Under the pieces are notes generated by a model, which saw only the letters and a list, made by a program, of their open reading frames with translations, ran no database searches and had not been told where the DNA came from. A program made the translations under genes and the position numbers. From a virus, in IMG/VR virus record IMGVR_UViG_3300030109_004497, positions 1 to 30,735 of that record: a stretch of DNA of 30,735 nt. The stretch is one strand, 5' to 3'. Positions 3,226 through 22,392 of the stretch are shown here, piece by piece; position 1 is the first letter of the stretch; every line of letters begins with the position of its first letter.

Positions 3226-3778
3226 ATAAATCTTTATTTTTGAATTTCTTTTTATCTTTACGATTCATCATACCTAACTCTGCTAGGTTGTCAATCATTT
3301 TACTTTTTTGTATTAGTGAAATTTTATCTTGGGAATATAACTCGTTAACTTTGTTAACTGCTTGATGATAACCTTCTTGGATGAATTCTTTTACTATTTC
3401 GTGGTAGAGAGTTTTGGATTCCATATGAGAGAAATTTTGAAATTTTTTACGAGAGATTTTTTTCTTTGGTCTCTTATTATATATATTGTCATAGTAACTT
3501 TCTAACCACCTATCCCAACTATTATCAGCGAATATACCTTTAGCAATTCGATTACCATTAGCAGACCTTCGGTCTAATCTCTGAAGATTCTTTTTAGTAT
3601 CCTTTTGGACAGGTTGAACAGTCGAACCTGTTTTGTGTGGATACACGATATGTGCTGAATACTTCTCAGTATCAGAACATTCGATACAAGTGAATAGACC
3701 GAGTTGGACTCGTGATGAATCTAACTCTGTCGAACACTCTCTACATACTATATCACTTGTCGTCTGCAAACCTATCAA
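3224..3778 (-). CDS. zinc-ribbon protein of unknown function
   Basis: This 184-residue, basic protein has an N-terminal C-x2-C...C-x2-C motif (VCRECSTELDSSRVQLGLF, then TCIECSD; residues about 12-35), a typical zinc ribbon. A linker with HIVYPHKTGS follows, then a lysine-rich helical C-terminal region that includes RPKKKISRKKFQNFS. This layout suits a nucleic-acid or RNA-polymerase-binding protein, but no family is recognised. There is no ATG near the start: TTG at 3778 or TTG at 3769 are the candidates that keep the zinc motif, so the start is uncertain. It overlaps the upstream 71-residue gene by 26 nt. The hairpin at 3164-3225 follows. Confidence 0.7.
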   Translation of the reverse strand: MIGLQTTSDIVCRECSTELDSSRVQLGLFTCIECSDTEKYSAHIVYPHKTGSTVQPVQKDTKKNLQRLDRRSANGNRIAKGIFADNSWDRWLESYYDNIYNKRPKKKISRKKFQNFSHMESKTLYHEIVKEFIQEGYHQAVNKVNELYSQDKISLIQKSKMIDNLAELGMMNRKDKKKFKNKDL

Positions 3779-4858: not shown

Positions 4859-5232
4859 TATATTAGGTAGTTAGGACCTGTCCAAGAGTAAAACTTATCT
4901 TTACTGAAGATAGAACCCCTAGCCCATTTAGCAGGAGCCCTCCAACCAGCTGCCTTAAAGACATCACCTTTCTTGTGTGGTATTCCCTTTAGTGAACCAT
5001 CACCAGCGGCGATAAATCCCCATACTGAACCACCTTGAATAACCTTGATATATTTCCTACCAATCTTTATATTAATACCTTGATTGAACTCGTCAATCAT
5101 TTTTAACCTAATCTTTTTAGATGATTCATCTAATGAGTCTATATCATTACCCCAACCAGCGTAATCTTTTTTTATACCGATAAGTAACTTATCTATAGCA
5201 TCCCAAAAATCGATTGTTGAATTTTTATCCAT
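4858..5232 (-). CDS. conserved phage protein of unknown function
   Basis: This 124-residue protein has a helical N-terminus (DAIDKLLIGIKKDY) and a beta-rich C-terminal part: GRKYIKVIQGGSVWGFIAAG, then KKGDVFKAAGWRAPAKWARG and SWTGPNYL at the end. I recall similar 'KGD-KAA-W-APAK-RG-W-TGP-YL' patterns in hypothetical proteins of marine T4-like phages; no function is known. It is coupled on both sides by TAATG (5232 and 4858). It lies in the P3 operon downstream of the tRNA genes. Confidence 0.72.
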   Translation of the reverse strand: MDKNSTIDFWDAIDKLLIGIKKDYAGWGNDIDSLDESSKKIRLKMIDEFNQGINIKIGRKYIKVIQGGSVWGFIAAGDGSLKGIPHKKGDVFKAAGWRAPAKWARGSIFSKDKFYSWTGPNYLI

Positions 5233-5522: not shown

Positions 5523-5596
5523 AGTAGAGGGTGGGATTCGAACCCACGAATAACGGATTTGCAATCCGCCCCATTAGACCACTCTGGCACCTCTAC
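5523..5596 (-). tRNA. tRNA-Cys (GCA)
   Basis: On the minus strand the acceptor GTAGAGG pairs with CCTCTAC, and the discriminator is T followed by an encoded CCA (5520-5522). The anticodon loop TTGCAAA gives GCA, cysteine. The T-arm is GTGGG-TTCGAAT-CCCAC. It lies 7 nt downstream of tRNA-Ala and is probably cut from the same transcript. It may aid translation of the Cys-rich small proteins of this phage. Confidence 0.95.
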
Positions 5597-5603
5597 ATGG
5601 AAG

Positions 5604-5676
5604 TGGAGCTGACTGGATTCGAACCAGCGACCTCTACAGTGCAAGTGTAGCGTTCTCCCAACTGAACTACAGCCCC
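5604..5676 (-). tRNA. tRNA-Ala (UGC)
   Basis: On the minus strand the acceptor GGGGCTG pairs with CAGCTCC, including a G3-U70 pair, the alanine identity element. The anticodon loop CTTGCAC gives UGC. The T-arm is CTGG-TTCGAAT-CCAG. CCA is not directly encoded: the bases after A73 are CTT. It begins 5 nt after the stop of the PseT-like phosphatase gene, so it is probably cotranscribed from P4. Confidence 0.95.
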
Positions 5677-5681
5677 ATCAA

Positions 5682-6221
5682 TTAAAAATCCCCAGGCGCT
5701 ACTTGAAAACAAGTAAGACCTAAATCTCTCCACATGTCCACAACTTTCTGTCTATCGTCTACAGTCATTAACACGTCATCTTTATCTACGAAAGTATCTA
5801 ACATTTTTGTTTTGAGGATTTCGTCTGGCATGAATCTCATGTCGGGTGTTGCTGGATTACCATCAGCAATCGGCCATGAGTCAGCCTGAAACTTATCAGG
5901 TCTCATCACTAAAAGGTCAAAGGGAACATCGTGTTTCTTTAACCATTTTTTAGTGGTGTGAAAAGACCTATCGTTTCTACCTGAGAAGATAACAATTTTA
6001 AATCCATCCTTAGCAAACGTTTGAGCCATCTTAATGACTGGTACGTTTGGTTGGTCAAGATTGAATACGTTATCAGGATCAAAGAATACATCCCAATCCA
6101 TCTTGTTGGTAGGTACACCATCTTTGGTTTTACCAGCAAGAACTCTCCTTTTATCTATGATGGCAAGTGTACCATCCAAATCGAATATTATTGTTTTTTT
6201 ATCTTTCATTTTTAATCCCAT
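5682..6221 (-). CDS. PseT/Pnkp-like polynucleotide 3'-phosphatase (HAD family), no kinase domain
   Basis: This 179-residue HAD phosphatase has motif I as IIFDLDGTLA (D14 and D16), motif II in IVIFSGRND, and a C-terminal DDRQKVVDMWRDLG-TCFQVAPGDF. The end closely matches the 3'-phosphatase domain of T4 polynucleotide kinase ([20 protein letters not shown]). The kinase half found in T4 PseT is absent. In T4 the enzyme repairs tRNA or DNA ends with RNA ligase after host nuclease cleavage. Its position directly before two tRNA genes fits an RNA-repair role, but no ligase lies in this window. The start may be ATG 6221 or ATG 6209. It overlaps the upstream gene by 10 nt. Confidence 0.85.
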   Translation of the reverse strand: MGLKMKDKKTIIFDLDGTLAIIDKRRVLAGKTKDGVPTNKMDWDVFFDPDNVFNLDQPNVPVIKMAQTFAKDGFKIVIFSGRNDRSFHTTKKWLKKHDVPFDLLVMRPDKFQADSWPIADGNPATPDMRFMPDEILKTKMLDTFVDKDDVLMTVDDRQKVVDMWRDLGLTCFQVAPGDF

Positions 6222-6657: not shown

Positions 6658-7063
6658 ACCAATGTCCTGTATAAGGTAGTCTAATGAGAATGTAAGGTTT
6701 GTCATCTACATAGAATATCTCATTAACTCCCCAATAGTTAGTTTCTTCGAATATTATCCTATCCATAAGTATATCCAAAGTCTCTTCTTTTTGTATAGTT
6801 GGTACATTTCCCCAAGCATAAGATTCGACTATCTCTATCTGAATCTGACAATGGACATCGTTTGATGGTTTAAGAACATACCCTATTATCTCAGGCTTAA
6901 CTTCACCTCTAAGTGCTGGTGATGCTAACAGAAACGTTACTATTGCTAATAATAAATGTAACCAAGATAATGATATCTTTTTCATTTTACTCTCCCTTTT
7001 TATTTTTACTTCACATTCTTCACCTGTTGTTTCAGATGTAAATCTGTAAGTTTTATATTTCAT
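6641..7063 (-). CDS. hypothetical membrane-anchored or secreted protein
   Basis: This 140-residue protein has a 25-residue polar N-terminus, then a basic-hydrophobic segment (KKISLSWLHLLLAIVTFLLA, about 27-46) that could be a signal anchor, followed by SPALRGEVK. The rest (about 50-140) is polar with aromatic strands and looks extracytoplasmic. If translation began at the internal Met27 the segment would be a normal signal peptide. The ATG 7063 overlaps the stop of the 32-residue gene (TAATG), so the longer form is coupled. Function unknown. Confidence 0.65.
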   Translation of the reverse strand: MKYKTYRFTSETTGEECEVKIKRESKMKKISLSWLHLLLAIVTFLLASPALRGEVKPEIIGYVLKPSNDVHCQIQIEIVESYAWGNVPTIQKEETLDILMDRIIFEETNYWGVNEIFYVDDKPYILIRLPYTGHWYGKDN

Positions 7064-7170: not shown

Positions 7171-7497
7171 CTATTTAATTTGTAAATCTTGTAATCCTTG
7201 TGGTACGTTCTTTTGTATGTAATGTTGTATCACGAAGGCCTCTGCTAAATGAGAAAAGAACCAGAAGAAACATAGTATAGGAACAAAGATTCTATAATCC
7301 AATCCTATCATAGAGACACCCAACCAAGTAAAGAATATCATACCCATAGATTTGGTTAGGAAACTAATACCACTAAACCCTAACGACATAACACTACCTC
7401 TAGCATTGACCACATAAACACCAATCATCAAGTGTAGTAGATTAAGAAATGAAGGAGCAATAACTCCCATTAAAAAATATAAAGATGCTGTAATCAT
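7171..7497 (-). CDS. small multi-pass membrane protein
   Basis: This 108-residue protein has about three membrane segments (about 4-28, 38-62, 68-92): SLYFLMGVIAPSFLNLLHLM, then FLTKSMGMIFFTWLGVSMIG, then FVPILCFFWFFSHLAEAFVI. The size and pattern recall AtpI-like or small phage membrane proteins, but nothing decisive is seen. The start overlaps the upstream 29-codon gene as ATGA. The gene is the third of a coupled chain (7684, 7583, 7497) under promoter P5. Confidence 0.68.
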   Translation of the reverse strand: MITASLYFLMGVIAPSFLNLLHLMIGVYVVNARGSVMSLGFSGISFLTKSMGMIFFTWLGVSMIGLDYRIFVPILCFFWFFSHLAEAFVIQHYIQKNVPQGLQDLQIK

Positions 7498-7583
7498 TTA
7501 AAGATATCCCTTTCTAATTCTTTTGCTAGATTGTAAAATGCGTATACAAAGATAACATACAATGATATCTCTAACACTGTCAT
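7494..7583 (-). CDS. 29-residue membrane micro-protein
   Basis: ATG 7583 to TGA 7494 encodes MTVLEISLYVIFVYAFYNLA then KELERDIFK: a single hydrophobic helix with a charged tail. The start overlaps the stop of the preceding 34-residue gene, and its own stop overlaps the start of the next gene (ATGA both times). The double coupling is the main evidence. Confidence 0.6.
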   Translation of the reverse strand: MTVLEISLYVIFVYAFYNLAKELERDIFK

Positions 7584-9096: not shown

Positions 9097-10272
9097 TTAG
9101 TCGTTGTCCTCTATCTCGTGGTCGGTGAACAACTCTTCTTCACTACCATCAGACACGAACTTCTGTACTATCTGTTTGACGAATGTTCTCTCCGAGTCAA
9201 CACCACCAGTAGCGTCATACTGAGGGTAGATGGTGATGTCGGCAGCTTCCATTAGATTGAATCCATCGAAGAGTAACCCAGCTATCTCTACTGAGGTTCT
9301 TGTCGACACACCACTCGTAATACGAGGATTGTCATTAGCCGCCTCAACACGAGTAAGGTGGGTAATGGACGAAATATTTTTTAGTTCACTTTCTTCGACA
9401 GTCGGAAACATGTACTTAAGTAAACCAAGCTCTTCTTCGTCATTAAGTAAGTCCATCTCGATAACGGTGAATCTATCCATGAGGGCTTTATCTAGCTGAC
9501 GAGTAGCGGTGTACTCATTACCGATGTTAGCCGTAGCGATGAATGTCACACCATCAGCGACCTTGATAGTATCTTGACCATCAGACTCATCAAGTCTTAA
9601 GTATCTCTGACCATAGTCGAGAACAGTCATCAAGATATTCCAAGCATCAGGATGTGCCCTTGTCAACTCATCTAAGAGTATAACGGCATTTTCCGTCTGT
9701 ATGGCTTTAACGAATAGTGACTCAGAAAAGTAAGTACCCTTACCTTTGTCGAAGTGAACGTTACCTATTAAGGACGCCCTCGGGTCTTGAGTCGCACCCA
9801 AGTTAAAGTAGAAGTCAGGTCTGTCAAGAGCATTGACGAGTGACTTAGCAGCCATTGTCTTTCCACAACCGGCTTGACCAGTCATCATTATATTCTTACC
9901 TCTGACGGCAGACCTTATGAGGTACTTCCACTTGAGTTCCTTCATGACCAAACCTTTCGGTTTTAGTCCATAGGAATTAGAAATAAAATCTACTACAGCC
10001 TCATGACCATCAGGTATCTCTACATCAGATGGAGCATCAGGTACGTGTGATACCGCACCGAATTGTTCCATTGGTACTTTCCACCAATAGATTCTTCCAC
10101 CCTTGCCCTCTCGGCATTCAAGAGCCATACCTTTCATGTATGCTGATTTCCTCGTACCAGTTCTGATATACGAGGTATATTTTACTCCATCTTTATCCCA
10201 AGCGTTGTATCTATTACCAGATTTCTCAATCTTGACGACTACGCCTGGTGATGGGTTTTTCCTTTTTGTCAT
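9097..10272 (-). CDS. cobS: CobS-like AAA+ ATPase (MoxR/CobS class)
   Basis: This 391-residue protein has an N-terminal basic region of about 100 residues, then an AAA+ module. Walker A is GQAGCGKT (132-139), Walker B VILLDE (197-202), sensor 1 lies in IATANIGNEYT and an arginine finger candidate in LMDRFTVIEMD. It is related to CobS, the ATPase of the cobaltochelatase, and to MoxR ATPases that remodel protein complexes with a VWA partner. The CobT-like VWA partner is encoded at 14195-16198 in a separate operon. Phages with this pair generally lack other cobalamin genes, so a chaperone-like role is as likely as cobalt insertion. GGAGAAAAT precedes the ATG and P6 is the promoter. A structured 3' region follows. 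Confidence 0.88.
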   Translation of the reverse strand: MTKRKNPSPGVVVKIEKSGNRYNAWDKDGVKYTSYIRTGTRKSAYMKGMALECREGKGGRIYWWKVPMEQFGAVSHVPDAPSDVEIPDGHEAVVDFISNSYGLKPKGLVMKELKWKYLIRSAVRGKNIMMTGQAGCGKTMAAKSLVNALDRPDFYFNLGATQDPRASLIGNVHFDKGKGTYFSESLFVKAIQTENAVILLDELTRAHPDAWNILMTVLDYGQRYLRLDESDGQDTIKVADGVTFIATANIGNEYTATRQLDKALMDRFTVIEMDLLNDEEELGLLKYMFPTVEESELKNISSITHLTRVEAANDNPRITSGVSTRTSVEIAGLLFDGFNLMEAADITIYPQYDATGGVDSERTFVKQIVQKFVSDGSEEELFTDHEIEDND

Positions 10273-10295: not shown

Positions 10296-10324
10296 AAGCT
10301 ACGAATAATAAATGAATAAAACAA
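10296..10324 (-). promoter_or_regulatory. sigma70-like promoter P6 (cobS)
   Basis: Minus-strand TTGTTT (10319-10324), 17-nt spacer, TAGCTT (10296-10301), followed by TAACTG. It lies 24 nt before the cobS start codon and matches P3, P7 and P9 in the -10 box. Confidence 0.8.
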
Positions 10325-10365
10325 GCATTATTTTCGTTATTTCGCCTTTTTTTTAATAAATCTTT

Positions 10366-10701
10366 GTGAGACATTTACCCAAATCCGGCATTTCCACCCG
10401 ACGGAAGCGGCCTGTACCACCACCATGTCTCACGAATCATTGAGGGGGGACTCGAACCCCCCAGCCATACTAACGGACTACTAAGGGAATCACTCCTTTT
10501 CGTCCTCTGACGCCACTTACCTAAGAGAGTGATTAGTTCTCTATCATGGGCCTTTCAAAGCCTGACCTTACTCAGTTGCGGTTTCCAAACCCAGCATTTC
10601 AGCCCCTTTCGGTCAGATGTCTTGGGGACTCCAGAAGTCGATGACTAGCAGTGGCTCTTAACCTTAGTCCCACTTAATTCTTTGTTTTATCTCTTTAACT
10701 C
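10366..10701 (-). ncRNA. large structured RNA with a tRNA T-arm-like hairpin
   Basis: This is a gene-free stretch of about 335 nt with its own promoter (P7). From its 5' end it contains: GGGACT/AGTCCC (10666-10671 with 10625-10630); CTGACC/GGTCAG (10611-10616 with 10562-10567) enclosing the hairpin GGTTT-CC-AAACC; a GGC...GCC hairpin (10549-10562); an 8-bp stem (10488-10495 with 10527-10534) enclosing CGTC-CTCT-GACG; a T-arm-like hairpin GGGGGG-TTCGAGT-CCCCCC (10444-10462); and a closing 9-bp stem GTGAGACAT/ATGTCTCAC (10366-10374 with 10425-10433) around another hairpin. The loop TTCGAGT fits the T-loop consensus TTCRANY. No matching acceptor, anticodon arm or tag frame is found, so tRNA and ordinary tmRNA are not supported. 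The class is unknown; GOLLD-like or divergent tmRNA-like RNAs are candidates. Confidence 0.7.
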
Positions 10702-10708
10702 ACATATA

Positions 10709-10737
10709 AAGCTACGAAGAAAAAACGACAGTTACAA
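10709..10737 (-). promoter_or_regulatory. sigma70-like promoter P7 (structured RNA)
   Basis: Minus-strand TTGTAA (10732-10737), 17-nt spacer, TAGCTT (10709-10714). It is nearly identical to P9 over the -35, spacer start (CTGT) and -10, and is preceded by a T-tract. The predicted start near 10702 matches the 5' edge of the structured RNA; no gene lies between P7 and that RNA. Confidence 0.8.
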
Positions 10738-10807
10738 GCAAAAAAGGCAAATAAATGCATTTTTTTCTGGGTAATTCATCCTAATCTAGCTTGCTGTGCA
10801 ATCCTCA

Positions 10808-10836
10808 AATATAACACTATTAGCGTTAAAATACAA
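10808..10836 (-). promoter_or_regulatory. sigma70-like promoter P8
   Basis: Minus-strand TTGTAT (10831-10836), 17-nt spacer, TATATT (10808-10813), then TGAGG. It lies 99 nt upstream of P7, so it gives a second, longer start for the structured RNA. A 15-codon frame (MNYPEKNAFICLFCL) starts just after it, but is too short to call. Confidence 0.7.
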
Positions 10837-11058
10837 GCAAAAAGTGATAAAAACCTATAGAAAAAGCTTTTTTTTCAAGTGTGTGTGAGCCCTATACTTT
10901 GAGGTGTGTCAAATAGTCATCTTCATGTAGTTTTGACATATATATAATATTATAAATTAGGGAAAATACCCACTACTACCCACGAGTAACCATAGAGCTA
11001 GTGTATTATATTGGATATTTGATGTGTATCCCTCGCTAGAGGGTGGAACGTGTTATAT
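10837..11058. other. gene-free AT-rich tract
   Basis: No credible gene was seen on either strand. It holds the hairpin CCCTC-GCTA-GAGGG (11029-11042) just past the stop of the 67-residue gene, a run of alternating TA (10939-10955), and an A/T tract near 10861-10875. The small hairpin lacks a T-run on the minus strand. The tract may simply space the end of the cobT operon from P8. Confidence 0.5.
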
Positions 11059-11262
11059 TTAGGTAAAAGGTGGCTCTTCCTTCCTTATCCATTCTATGTC
11101 TTTTACCCCTTTAATGCTTAATAATTCTTTTATGTGTACTTCAGAGTCACCCCATAACCAGAACTGAATAACTTTACCATTAGGTTTGTATATACCCATG
11201 TCTCTGGCTCTTATGTGATACCAGCCTTCTTGTGTATCGTCACCCCAAAAGGGATTAGGCAT
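11059..11262 (-). CDS. hypothetical small protein, last gene of the cobT operon
   Basis: This 67-residue protein, MPNPFWGDDTQEGWYHIRAR..., has four or more tryptophans, a beta-rich middle (GKVIQFWLWGDSEVHIKELL) and the end EWIRKEEPPFT. No family is recognised. The ATG 11262 overlaps the stop of the 28-residue upstream gene by 8 nt. A small hairpin (11029-11042) follows and may stabilise the 3' end. Confidence 0.6.
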   Translation of the reverse strand: MPNPFWGDDTQEGWYHIRARDMGIYKPNGKVIQFWLWGDSEVHIKELLSIKGVKDIEWIRKEEPPFT

Positions 11263-11859: not shown

Positions 11860-12079
11860 TATTTAACTTATCCATATTACTTAGTAAACCAAGCTTATCT
11901 TTAATAGTATGTAGGTCGTCTTCAATCTTATCAAGTCGTTTTTGTACTTTTTCTAATTCTTTATGACCAACTACACCATGACCATAGACACGGTGTGGTG
12001 TCCTAAGTATCTTGAGGATTTCCCTAAGTGACTTCTCGATGTTGAGTTTTGGTCGTAGCTTGTTTAGTTCATCCATCAT
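11846..12079 (-). CDS. hypothetical coiled-coil protein
   Basis: This 77-residue protein, MMDELNKLRPKLNIEKSLRE..., has a short linker, HRVYGHGVVGHKE, followed by a clear heptad helix (LEKVQKRLDKIEDDLHTIKD). It is probably a dimeric coiled coil. The start overlaps the SET-domain gene stop (ATGA) and the end overlaps the GIY-YIG gene by 14 nt. No family recognised. Confidence 0.62.
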   Translation of the reverse strand: MMDELNKLRPKLNIEKSLREILKILRTPHRVYGHGVVGHKELEKVQKRLDKIEDDLHTIKDKLGLLSNMDKLNNEEI

Positions 12080-12486
12080 TCCAATTCACCCACCAAAGGT
12101 ATGTCGTTAAATGCGTCCCTAGCAAAGTAGTAATCATCATCATAGTATGTACAAACCTCTTCACCTACCTCGATGTCCCTTGTTGCTACAAATTGAAACA
12201 CCCTATCCAACTCGGGATGATTAATCCAATTTGCATTCCAATTGTTACGGCTATGGTTATATACCGCACCGTAACCAAGAGGTAAACATAGTATTTGTGG
12301 TACATCGGTAGGTGACTTGGGCCAAGCAAAACGATAGTCGGGTAGTGGATTCTCACCATCCAACGGAATCACTGGACATTCCTCTATTACCTCTTTATTC
12401 ATTATCGGTGCACACGCAAACATCCCCCAAATTGGTTTTTCGGGTGAGTAATCAATCCTTACTTTTTTTGGTCTAACTAAACTCAT
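12076..12486 (-). CDS. SET-domain protein (putative lysine methyltransferase)
   Basis: This 136-residue protein has the order expected of a short SET domain. GMFACAPIMNKEVIEECPVI (21-40) is the first strand block. LPLGYGAVYNHSRNNWNANW (68-87) contains the NHS motif that forms the SAM pocket. The block from ATRDIEVGEEVCTYYDDDYY (101-120) contains GEE and the catalytic Tyr region. The family moves a methyl group from SAM to lysine side chains. In phages the target is unknown: a host or phage nucleic-acid-binding protein is possible. There is no pre- or post-SET zinc cluster. It couples with its neighbours by ATGA at both ends, in the cobT operon. Confidence 0.82.
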   Translation of the reverse strand: MSLVRPKKVRIDYSPEKPIWGMFACAPIMNKEVIEECPVIPLDGENPLPDYRFAWPKSPTDVPQILCLPLGYGAVYNHSRNNWNANWINHPELDRVFQFVATRDIEVGEEVCTYYDDDYYFARDAFNDIPLVGELE

Positions 12487-19966: not shown

Positions 19967-20710
19967 TTACTCTCCGAATAGGTCTTTGAATGCCTGATTG
20001 GCAGCTTTTGATTGTTGAGTCTTCTCTTTCGTTACCACTTCCTTCTGTACTTTAATATCATGGTCACCTCGTTTCCACTCATCATACTCTATTTTACTAG
20101 CCATCATATCTGCCTGATGTAATATATGAGCAATATTAGACCTAAGTTGTTTATGTGGCATGTAACTGACATAGTAACCTTTATTAGCTTCTTCATACAT
20201 ACCATCGGTTAATCTTAGTCCAAGATACTCATTTTCAGACATCTTGACATCAAAATGTTGTAATAACCAAATTGCCCTATCAGTTACAGTCATGTACTGA
20301 ATATTAGGATTATGTTTATAGATTAACCCTTGATTCTTACGATGCCAGTCTGATTCGTTTGGTACATAATAGTCCTCAGCCAAACCACCAACTTTACCCA
20401 AGTCATGATGTAAGGCAGCAAATATTAACTCTTCTTTATCAAAATCGTCAATTGTAGCACCATTTTTACCCCATAAATCCCATATCTGAACTACTAAATC
20501 AGTTATATGTAGGACATGTTCCACATAACCACCAGCGTGAGCGTTATGGAAGTGTTCTTTACCACTTGCTGGTGCGATACACATCCTCTCTTCAAAGTAG
20601 TCATACATTTTATTTAAGTTATCGAGTCTTTCACCAACGAATGTTTCATTGATGAGACTCCTCAGTTTTTCCCAATTCTCTTGAATTTGTTCGGGTGTCA
20701 ACTCTTTCAT
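19967..20710 (-). CDS. HD-domain phosphohydrolase
   Basis: This 247-residue protein has an HD superfamily pattern: AHAGGYVEHVLHITDL (58-73, first metal histidines), the HHDLGK signature (101-106) and a later helix, HILHQADMMASK, with the last Asp. Members hydrolyse nucleotides or phosphodiesters, or act as 3'-5' exoribonucleases. Similar proteins occur in T4-like marine phages with unknown substrate. The C-terminus is a lysine-rich tail (EVVTKEKTQQSKAANQAFKD). It overlaps the DUF262-HNH gene by 4 nt. It could trim modified nucleotides for the neighbouring enzymes, but that is inference. Confidence 0.82.
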   Translation of the reverse strand: MKELTPEQIQENWEKLRSLINETFVGERLDNLNKMYDYFEERMCIAPASGKEHFHNAHAGGYVEHVLHITDLVVQIWDLWGKNGATIDDFDKEELIFAALHHDLGKVGGLAEDYYVPNESDWHRKNQGLIYKHNPNIQYMTVTDRAIWLLQHFDVKMSENEYLGLRLTDGMYEEANKGYYVSYMPHKQLRSNIAHILHQADMMASKIEYDEWKRGDHDIKVQKEVVTKEKTQQSKAANQAFKDLFGE

Positions 20711-22392
20711 GATTCTATACCTCTTTGTTTCTTTATTTCTTGTATCTCGAAAACCTTACTTAAGTCTATCTTACCCATCATTACCAAACCTTGTAAGTCT
20801 TCTGTAGATAGGTCAACCAGTTGTTCGTCATCCATTGTGTCGGTCTTCTGTAAATTGTGTTCGGAACATAACAATTGTCCGTTGTCGATGTGAGTCTTAC
20901 CACCTTTACTCCAAGGTTTTTTGTGGTCAACTTGTAGACCTTCTGTCACATTACAACCAGGATGATTACACACACAACCATCTCTGTCTTCTATCTCTTG
21001 TCTTTGTTTCTTAGTGAAATCTCTTTGATTATCTAGTATCACTATACCCCAATTGGATAGATTCTTTTCCATGTCAGTTTCAATGACACCCTTCAACCAC
21101 TCGTAGTCATTGATGTTAATACCAGTCTTCCACACACCTTGAAATCTATACTTAGACCTTTCAGATTTCATATTCTTTTTGTGAACAATTGTTAACTTAC
21201 CATTCACAACCTCATAACGACAGTTCTCAACCATACTTAGTTCTTTGACAGTTGTCAACAGATAGGAAGTTAACTTGTTGAAGAAAAGATTCTCATCCAT
21301 TCTCTCCATTGAAAAGTGTCCGTACTTGTCAATCCAATCATTTATCATCAATCCAAGTTTAACCAGTGAACTCTTTGTCCAAAGTGTATTAATCTTCTTG
21401 AATCTTTTGTCGTTACTATTGTTGACGATGATTCTGTTCATCACAGACAATATTTTCTTCACTCTGTTCATTGTCTTACCATTTATGTGGTAGGAACCTG
21501 TCTTTCCTTTCTTCTCGTGTAAATCATTCTCATACACATTATCTATATATGTCTTACTCGGTGTAAGAGATGGATAAGTTTCAGGTTCGATACTACCTAA
21601 AAACTTCTCTTTAATTCGTATTGAAAGTATGGAAACAATTTCATCCGTAACACGACCTGTGTGAGATACTTTTGAACTCAAGTATAATAGTTTGTTTTCA
21701 CTATTTATTCTCTTTGTGAAAATCTCAAACTCACTACTATCAAAAGAACCCAACTGACGACAACTATAAGAAATCTGTTTTCTGTATGAGTTTCTCCATT
21801 GTGGATCGGTCATGACATGTAAGTTATTCAAAGTTCTAAATTTCTCTCCAGCTAATGTATCAGTTAAAGTAGTGTAAACATCAACATCAAAAACCAAAGT
21901 CTTAGACAAATAGTCTTTGACCACTGGTGGGAACTCAACCCAACTCATCTCACCTAAGTCATACGACTTACCATTTATCTCCAAAGTAAATCCCTTTGGT
22001 GTCTCTAGTAAACCTTGATAAAAGTTGAAAAAAGTACGAGTTCTGTGTCCACCATCTAACAGTTCTTGTATATAAAGTTCAATGTATTGTTGGTTATAAT
22101 CTTGAAAATCTATTGGTTTGTCATTAACCTGTCTTAAAGAAAGAGGTGGTATCTTGTCTCCTCTCAAAAAGTTTGAGATTAAATTCTTCTGCCAGGTATT
22201 ACCTGTATAAGAACCCAACTCGTCTTCATATGTATAAGGTCTTTGATAGGTTGGTTTCGGGTCAATAACTCCACTTCTGAAAAGTTCCATGTAAGTACCA
22301 AATTGGATGTTACCAGTGTAACCACCCAAAAACATCCTTACATAATTAAAACCTTGTAAACCCTCTAAATTATTTTCATTAACTAACTTCAT
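20707..22392 (-). CDS. DUF262-HNH nuclease (GmrSD/BrxU-like)
   Basis: This 561-residue protein has an N-terminal DUF262 (ParB/Srx-fold) region: YQRPY (49-53), WQKNLISNFLRGDKIPPLSL (67-86) and LLDGGHRTRTFFNF (111-124), a variant of the family's DGQQR motif. The C-terminal HNH module (about 465-518) has RDGCVCNHPGC, LQVDHKKPWSKGG, then LCSEHNLQKTD with zinc-type cysteines. Proteins joining DUF262 with an HNH-like nuclease include GmrSD and BrxU, type IV enzymes that cut modified, often glucosylated, DNA. Here it is phage-encoded and next to methyltransferase genes. It may attack host or rival phage DNA while the phage's own DNA is protected. AAAGAGATAAATC precedes ATG 22392; P11 is the promoter. 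Confidence 0.82.
   Translation of the reverse strand: MKLVNENNLEGLQGFNYVRMFLGGYTGNIQFGTYMELFRSGVIDPKPTYQRPYTYEDELGSYTGNTWQKNLISNFLRGDKIPPLSLRQVNDKPIDFQDYNQQYIELYIQELLDGGHRTRTFFNFYQGLLETPKGFTLEINGKSYDLGEMSWVEFPPVVKDYLSKTLVFDVDVYTTLTDTLAGEKFRTLNNLHVMTDPQWRNSYRKQISYSCRQLGSFDSSEFEIFTKRINSENKLLYLSSKVSHTGRVTDEIVSILSIRIKEKFLGSIEPETYPSLTPSKTYIDNVYENDLHEKKGKTGSYHINGKTMNRVKKILSVMNRIIVNNSNDKRFKKINTLWTKSSLVKLGLMINDWIDKYGHFSMERMDENLFFNKLTSYLLTTVKELSMVENCRYEVVNGKLTIVHKKNMKSERSKYRFQGVWKTGININDYEWLKGVIETDMEKNLSNWGIVILDNQRDFTKKQRQEIEDRDGCVCNHPGCNVTEGLQVDHKKPWSKGGKTHIDNGQLLCSEHNLQKTDTMDDEQLVDLSTEDLQGLVMMGKIDLSKVFEIQEIKKQRGIES

Follow-up and report, generated by a model that had tools for sequence, protein, structure and literature searches.

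A single phage spacer, the gene-free stretch ahead of the cobS-like gene described below, carries two RNA families, here called modules A and B, that are supported by covariation and absent from Rfam 15. Comparison of relatives shows module A to be a three-way-junction RNA, present in many marine phages, and module B to be a cloverleaf-shaped, tRNA-like RNA; both also occur elsewhere alone and, on their compensatory base changes, are under selection for structure. We hold, with about as much confidence as doubt, that the stretch is a noncoding RNA unit of separate modules, in which B would be a tRNA mimic handled by the host tRNA machinery and A an RNA boundary element.

The window, meaning the whole stretch of DNA analysed, is a virus record of 30,735 bases (IMG/VR IMGVR_UViG_3300030109_004497) whose long ORFs lie mostly on the minus strand. 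The spacer is bounded by a gene for a cobS-like AAA ATPase (9097-10272; PHROG 249, Pfam AAA_5) and by the next minus-strand ORF at 11059. It is free of genes, as the earlier note had described it, with no ORF of at least 50 amino acids within 10316-11058 on either strand. The G+C content is 50% in 10366-10685 versus 35% window-wide, and 31% in 10690-10836. The part at 10674-10836 is an AT-rich putative promoter and leader lying outside the structured RNA, which shares the minus strand with the neighbouring genes and extends from about 10673 to 10366. The G+C-rich part bearing the RNA begins about 30 nt past a TTGTAA-N17-TAGCTT box on the minus strand; a second such box follows, and then cobS. 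Elsewhere in the window, 20707-22392 (minus strand) encodes a 561-amino-acid protein that has an HNH endonuclease domain and, at its N-terminus, matches GmrSD weakly. The features of the RNA unit are as follows.

10709-10737, minus strand: putative promoter of the RNA unit, TTGTAA (10737-10732), 17 nt, TAGCTT (10714-10709), read from the sequence.
Near 10702, minus strand: expected transcript start of the RNA unit, from the position of the putative promoter.
10623-10673, minus strand: module A, predicted three-way-junction RNA (covariance model R1, pair counts, consensus fold).
10671-10667 / 10629-10625, minus strand: module A P1, GGGAC/GUCCC.
Within 10623-10673, minus strand: module A P2, a GGU/GCC hairpin.
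10646-10643 / 10639-10636, minus strand: module A P3, AGUC/GACU.
Module A core, minus strand: UAR ... ACUGYU ... UCWGGM.
10561-10622, minus strand: module D, stem CUGACC/GGUCAG (10616-10611 / 10567-10562) enclosing GAAAGGGGCUGAAA...CUGAGUAA.
10437-10561, minus strand: module B, predicted tRNA-like cloverleaf RNA (covariance model R2, pair counts, acceptor swap test, RNAalifold).
10560-10555 / 10443-10438, minus strand: module B acceptor, CUUUGA/UCAAUG, with one U.U mismatch; an AAGG... spacer comes next.
10542-10538 / 10528-10524, minus strand: module B H1.
10511-10508 / 10467-10464, minus strand: module B H3, GUCA/UGGC.
10505-10502 / 10478-10475, minus strand: module B H2, GGAC/GUCC.
10444-10462, minus strand: module B T arm, GGGGGG-UUCGAGU-CCCCCC; relatives vary both strands of the stem and conserve the loop, UUCRANU.
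10488-10534, minus strand: candidate loop-loop (kissing) contact of module B, AAUCAC (10534-10529, H1 loop) with GUGAUU (10493-10488, H2 loop).
10366-10433, minus strand: tail hairpin with 9-bp stem GUGAGACAU/AUGUCUCAC, present in the window only.
10297-10324, minus strand: putative separate promoter of the cobS-like gene, TTGTTT (10324-10319), 16 nt, TAGCTT (10302-10297), read from the sequence.

Folding energy was not beyond chance on either strand (minus strand, z = -0.48, with 35 of 100 shuffles equally good; plus strand, z = -1.26). Stems of at least 8 bp numbered two, against 0.67 expected by shuffling, and this count was reached in 35 of 200 shuffles, so there is no clear excess. Taken alone, the sequence folds no better than chance, and only its relatives, contigs of marine phages, reveal the structure.

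Such relatives came from a search with the cobS-like protein, which gave 80 IMG/VR loci; the closest, L001 and L002, have a cobS that is 100% identical. The window and its relatives were compared with Rfam 15 at gathering and E<=10 thresholds, tmRNA, permuted tmRNA and GOLLD models included. Weak chance-level matches aside, the only ones were to tRNA, tmRNA (plain, permuted and alpha) and manA RNA, all off both modules, and ARAGORN called neither a tRNA nor a tmRNA in the gene-free stretch. No meaningful match came from BLAST searches of 50,697 phage records with either the region or module A. Neither module was described in the titles and abstracts that searches of the open-access literature gave, though a description may exist elsewhere. 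We regard modules A and B as new RNAs because neither matches a known RNA family; the earlier note's proposal of a phage RNA of unknown class thus stands, now with covariation, and the GOLLD-like RNA it had offered as one option found no hit.

The known copies of module B come from some 20 contigs, many of which are near-identical. Applied to an untrimmed MAFFT alignment of nine copies, RNAalifold recovered H1, H3, H2 and the T arm, with double changes in 13 of the 22 pairs; in one alignment the named structure was 95.5% paired with 31 double-change cells (0/500 shuffles). With 15 distinct copies, in an alignment fitted to the covariance model, it was 93.3% paired with 57 double-change cells (again 0/500). 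MAFFT misaligned the acceptor in trimmed pieces, and its strands were therefore tested by swapping them between copies, in a fixed register beside the AAGG spacer and the T stem: 55 of 60 positions pair, against a mean of 35.6 with strands swapped (1/20000). Later copies (among L159-L170), found with a pattern that left the acceptor out, keep it in the same register, and on the set including them RNAalifold recovered acceptor, H1, H3 and T arm unaided. Covariance model R2 scores 135 bits at the window copy.

The T arm is paired in all copies of module B, its stem varying on both sides around the conserved loop UUCRANU, and the hairpin with loop TTCGAGT that the earlier note had likened to a T arm is this element. 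The six acceptor pairs and six T-stem pairs form a 12-bp stack as in tRNA, and most copies have a C74 after the discriminator (N73), as do the tRNA genes examined in related phages. In the window's clade C74 is missing, and the acceptor retains five of six pairs in the window and has two mismatches in L001 and L002. The claim that the T-loop lacks a matching acceptor arm thus holds in part, and for this clade only; the homologues have a covarying acceptor stem. Given the degenerate acceptor end and the swapped tail in this clade, module B here may be impaired or may rely on its fold alone. The loops of H1 and H2 are complementary (UAAUCA/UGAUUA) in nearly all copies, and since this complementarity hardly varies, a kissing contact is only a candidate. 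An 8-bp stem, AATCACTC/GAGTGATT (10488-10495 / 10527-10534), that had been read as enclosing a second hairpin corresponds in relatives mostly to the loops of these two hairpins. Inspection by eye of the copies in the window, L001 and L079 showed no tag reading frame.

The core of module A, UARGRUUAAGAGYYACUGYU, occurs in 55 stretches of the viral collection, some of them by chance. A descriptor that also required UCWGGM as second strand, together with two variable stems, was passed by 28 distinct copies and by none of the reversed-sequence controls; loosening the pattern by allowing gaps and dropping the UARG start yielded no additional copy that the descriptor accepted. In an alignment of 24 distinct copies, 98.6% of pair cells are paired and 10 of 12 pairs show double changes; the alignment leans toward structure, since the variable P3 interiors were trimmed by hand. 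Its pairing score was equalled in 0 of 500 shuffles, sliding the partners lowered pairing to 60% or less, and RNAalifold recovered the same three helices. Covariance model R1 scores 66 bits at the window copy, which was among the sequences used to build it. P2 is longer or replaced in more distant copies (L018, L072, L187 and L222), and a T-loop-like reading of the P2 loop was dropped, as L018, L187 and L222 carry other loops there. Circularly permuted copies, with P1 capped and P3 closing, were found in L084, L114, L119 and L135, and by eye in L098. Scanning the genome collection for the core yielded 18 stretches. The structure is present in just one of them, L142, which is a possibly phage-derived contig within a Flavobacteriales MAG; the others have the core without stems and are most likely chance.

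Module A is found most often in the gene 32/uvsX spacer, flanked by genes whose products were identified by Pfam as gp32 and RecA. At loci with both genes it starts 10-15 nt past the upstream stop codon and ends 18-24 nt ahead of the uvsX ATG. Among 80 uvsX relatives, this spot is occupied by module A, by one of two further elaborate domains or by a plain hairpin, or else is empty. One of these other domains has a G+C-rich stem, e.g. GGGGAGUUGAAGACAGGAAUAAAACCGCCUGC...UUACCGGAUACUCCCC (L172, L181, L191, L202, L209 and L240), and the other has, e.g., GGGUGGCAGUCUACAGAUUGAAGA...GUACGCCUAACCACCC (L183, L220 and L235); neither gave an Rfam match. The two phage records whose cobS proteins are closest (L251 and L252; 52-54% identity) lack module A near that gene.

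The earlier note had taken the stretch for a single large RNA, a view that did not survive comparison with relatives, in which the modules occur singly or reordered. Their order is A-D-B in the window and B-A in L005, L079 and L125; in L005 and L079 the T-arm piece precedes the piece that stands first in the window's RNA. The stretch is thus made up of modules in a chain. Over window positions 12000-8500 the alignment identity to L002 is 98%, yet the two sequences differ immediately ahead of cobS, with a 68-nt hairpin in the window and a different short one in L002; L001 has an extra 5' hairpin. The 9-bp stem already noted at 10366-10374 / 10425-10433 belongs to this tail hairpin, which is absent from the near-identical L001 and L002; these have another hairpin. 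Module D, whose P1 differs on both sides in L097 (CGCACC/GGUGCG), is known from few sequences, namely the window, L001 and L002, L097 and a rearranged form in L121. For module D and the tail hairpin the structural case is weaker than for modules A and B.

Other recurring elements were seen in similar RNA islands. A module C, found upstream of cobS or near tRNA-Cys, has a stem (e.g. CUUGA/UCAAG) enclosing a core of the UUCUGACGAGAA type, with a G+C-rich hairpin after it; its copies are at L004 3297-3396, L007 1025-1129, L085 69-170, L010 5779-5855, L011 1044-1114 and L012 3274-3361, and both sides of its P1 are changed between L004 and L007. Three further noncoding modules recur: CCCTRTTTGAAGTTCACC... 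(L110 ~290-480, L010 ~5590-5745), AAGATGGTGGGTTGAGAGTGACTACC... (L110 ~480-530, L099 ~4960-5020, L012 ~3390-3445) and GATACCGAAATGACTTGAATACTGCCCGACTCGACC... (L125 ~7495-7570, L011 ~930-1010).

Promoters pointing into the RNA had also been claimed. They are plausible in that relatives have TTGACT-N16/17-TA-rich boxes immediately upstream of the corresponding modules, but in a generic promoter scan of the window the boxes of the RNA unit were not above chance. Boxes matching the putative cobS promoter precede cobS in relatives as well. In L159, L160, L163 and L165 module B forms its own unit, preceded by a promoter box and by a 5' hairpin or leader, and immediately followed by another promoter box. 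These positions suggest that the modules may be independent transcription units. The leader after the promoter box (window 10702-10674, TGAGTTAAAGAGATAAAACAAAGAATT) is shared with L002, L121 and L164; its first codons are a start codon, AGT or AAT, and a stop, in the window GTG AGT TAA.

In the reading that we prefer, the unit would be transcribed on the minus strand from the promoter near 10737-10709, ahead of the cobS-like gene with its own promoter box. RNase P and 3' trimming would set the ends of module B, CCA would be added at N73-C74 in intact copies, and the mimic might engage a tRNA-binding partner during infection. Module A, for which the place it takes, wedged in the gene 32/uvsX spacer, suggests the role of a boundary element, could set RNA ends or stability between units by cleavage, by protein binding or as a stability element. 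The cloverleaf likeness of module B is not proof that tRNA enzymes act on it; their recognition of it is something that we infer. If true, the presence in DNA phages of a tRNA-like noncoding RNA that forms a unit of its own would suggest that phages use tRNA mimicry as a tactic; module A draws interest through its permutations, its repeated placement between gene 32 and uvsX, and its small size.

It is conceivable, though doubtful, that module A is a new self-cleaving ribozyme, which would cut phage RNAs in the gene 32/uvsX spacer and at the joints of the noncoding modules. A small three-way junction with a near-invariant core and freely exchanged stem sequences fits the pattern of hammerhead-type ribozymes, as do permutation (P1 or P3 closing) and placement between transcription or coding units; a protein-binding site, however, would give module A the same pattern. 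Since other phages have plain hairpins or nothing at the uvsX site, cleavage there would be at least dispensable.

Module A might instead be a protein- or ligand-binding regulator of uvsX and of the noncoding unit, with the whole stretch a cis-acting leader of cobS, which we think unlikely. Its place in the spacer just before the uvsX start codon would suit a regulator, and contigs with module A also contain manA RNA (L110 927-1121; L099 7028-7221, with a weak match at 6837-6966), which Weinberg et al. (PMC2864571) list among riboswitch candidates. Module A does not overlap a Shine-Dalgarno sequence, however, and a cis-acting leader is opposed by the separate promoter box that comes after the RNA at cobS and by the stand-alone units of module B, which directly precede another promoter box. 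We are more sceptical still of a wider picture in which marine phages would carry exchangeable RNA modules, including a new ribozyme class (A) and a tRNA-mimicking B that takes over part of the host tRNA machinery, swapped at the gene 32/uvsX spacer and upstream of cobS.

The tmRNA-like RNA envisaged by the earlier note holds up only loosely, in that module B includes a tRNA-like domain, and it is highly improbable that module B is a divergent tmRNA or a remnant of one. It does have an acceptor and a T arm without a normal anticodon arm, its spacer in L079 (AAGGGUAUUGG) resembles the start of the L003 tmRNA (AAAGGUAUCGACAGG), and very weak Rfam tmRNA hits are confined to its T arm. Nonetheless it is about 125 nt long, no tag frame was seen by eye in the three copies inspected, no tmRNA was called by ARAGORN or at the Rfam threshold, each of H1, H3 and H2 covaries as a separate arm, and L003, which holds part of module B, has a separate canonical tmRNA. 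That the stems are chance pairings in a G+C-rich spacer without RNA function, as the folding energies and stem counts of the single sequence would allow, is refuted for practical purposes by the strong covariation of modules A and B, which also occur independently in other contigs.

Among known RNAs, tRNA (RF00005) shares with module B the order acceptor, arm, arm, T arm, the 12-bp acceptor/T stack, the T-loop UUCRANU and the 3' N73-C74 seen in related phages' tRNA genes. Module B differs in having 6+6 rather than 7+5 bp, a hairpin with loop UAAUCA in the position of the D arm and, in place of the anticodon arm and its 7-nt loop, a two-part helix (H3+H2, with a long insert). The acceptor stem and tRNA-type T arm are thus present in the family, but the anticodon arm and an ARAGORN or Rfam call are not; on these grounds, and with no tmRNA match and no tag frame seen by eye in three copies, we file module B as neither tRNA nor tmRNA, for all its likeness to a tRNA. 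With tmRNA (RF00023) and permuted tmRNA (RF04321) it shares a tRNA-like domain lacking an anticodon arm and an AAGG-rich spacer after the acceptor, but it is far shorter, with no messenger part seen and no pseudoknot chain. Both forms of tmRNA occur in these contigs: L003 has a canonical phage tmRNA (4193-4549, tag GNTANFAYA) along with module A and part of module B, and L114 a permuted one (12071-12328) along with its permuted module A.

GOLLD and ROOL are large structured noncoding RNAs in phage DNA. The present RNAs are likewise structured, noncoding and found in phage DNA, but they are small modules rather than one large RNA and have no covariance-model match in Rfam 15. The hammerhead core is CUGANGA / GAAA / UH, unlike the UAR / ACUGYU / UCWGGM of module A, and module A gave no match in Rfam 15 to known self-cleaving families (hammerhead, twister, pistol and others) or to any riboswitch family. 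The two are alike in their three-way junction, compact conserved core and circular permutation, which is reported for natural hammerheads (PMC3088659). The manA (RF01745) and wcaG RNAs were described from marine metagenomes and T4-like cyanophages (PMC2864571); neither has an Rfam hit in the window, and no similarity to modules A and B was seen. Like modules A and B, they are structured marine-phage RNAs of unconfirmed function, and RNAs of this sort are the nearest known kind to the two modules.
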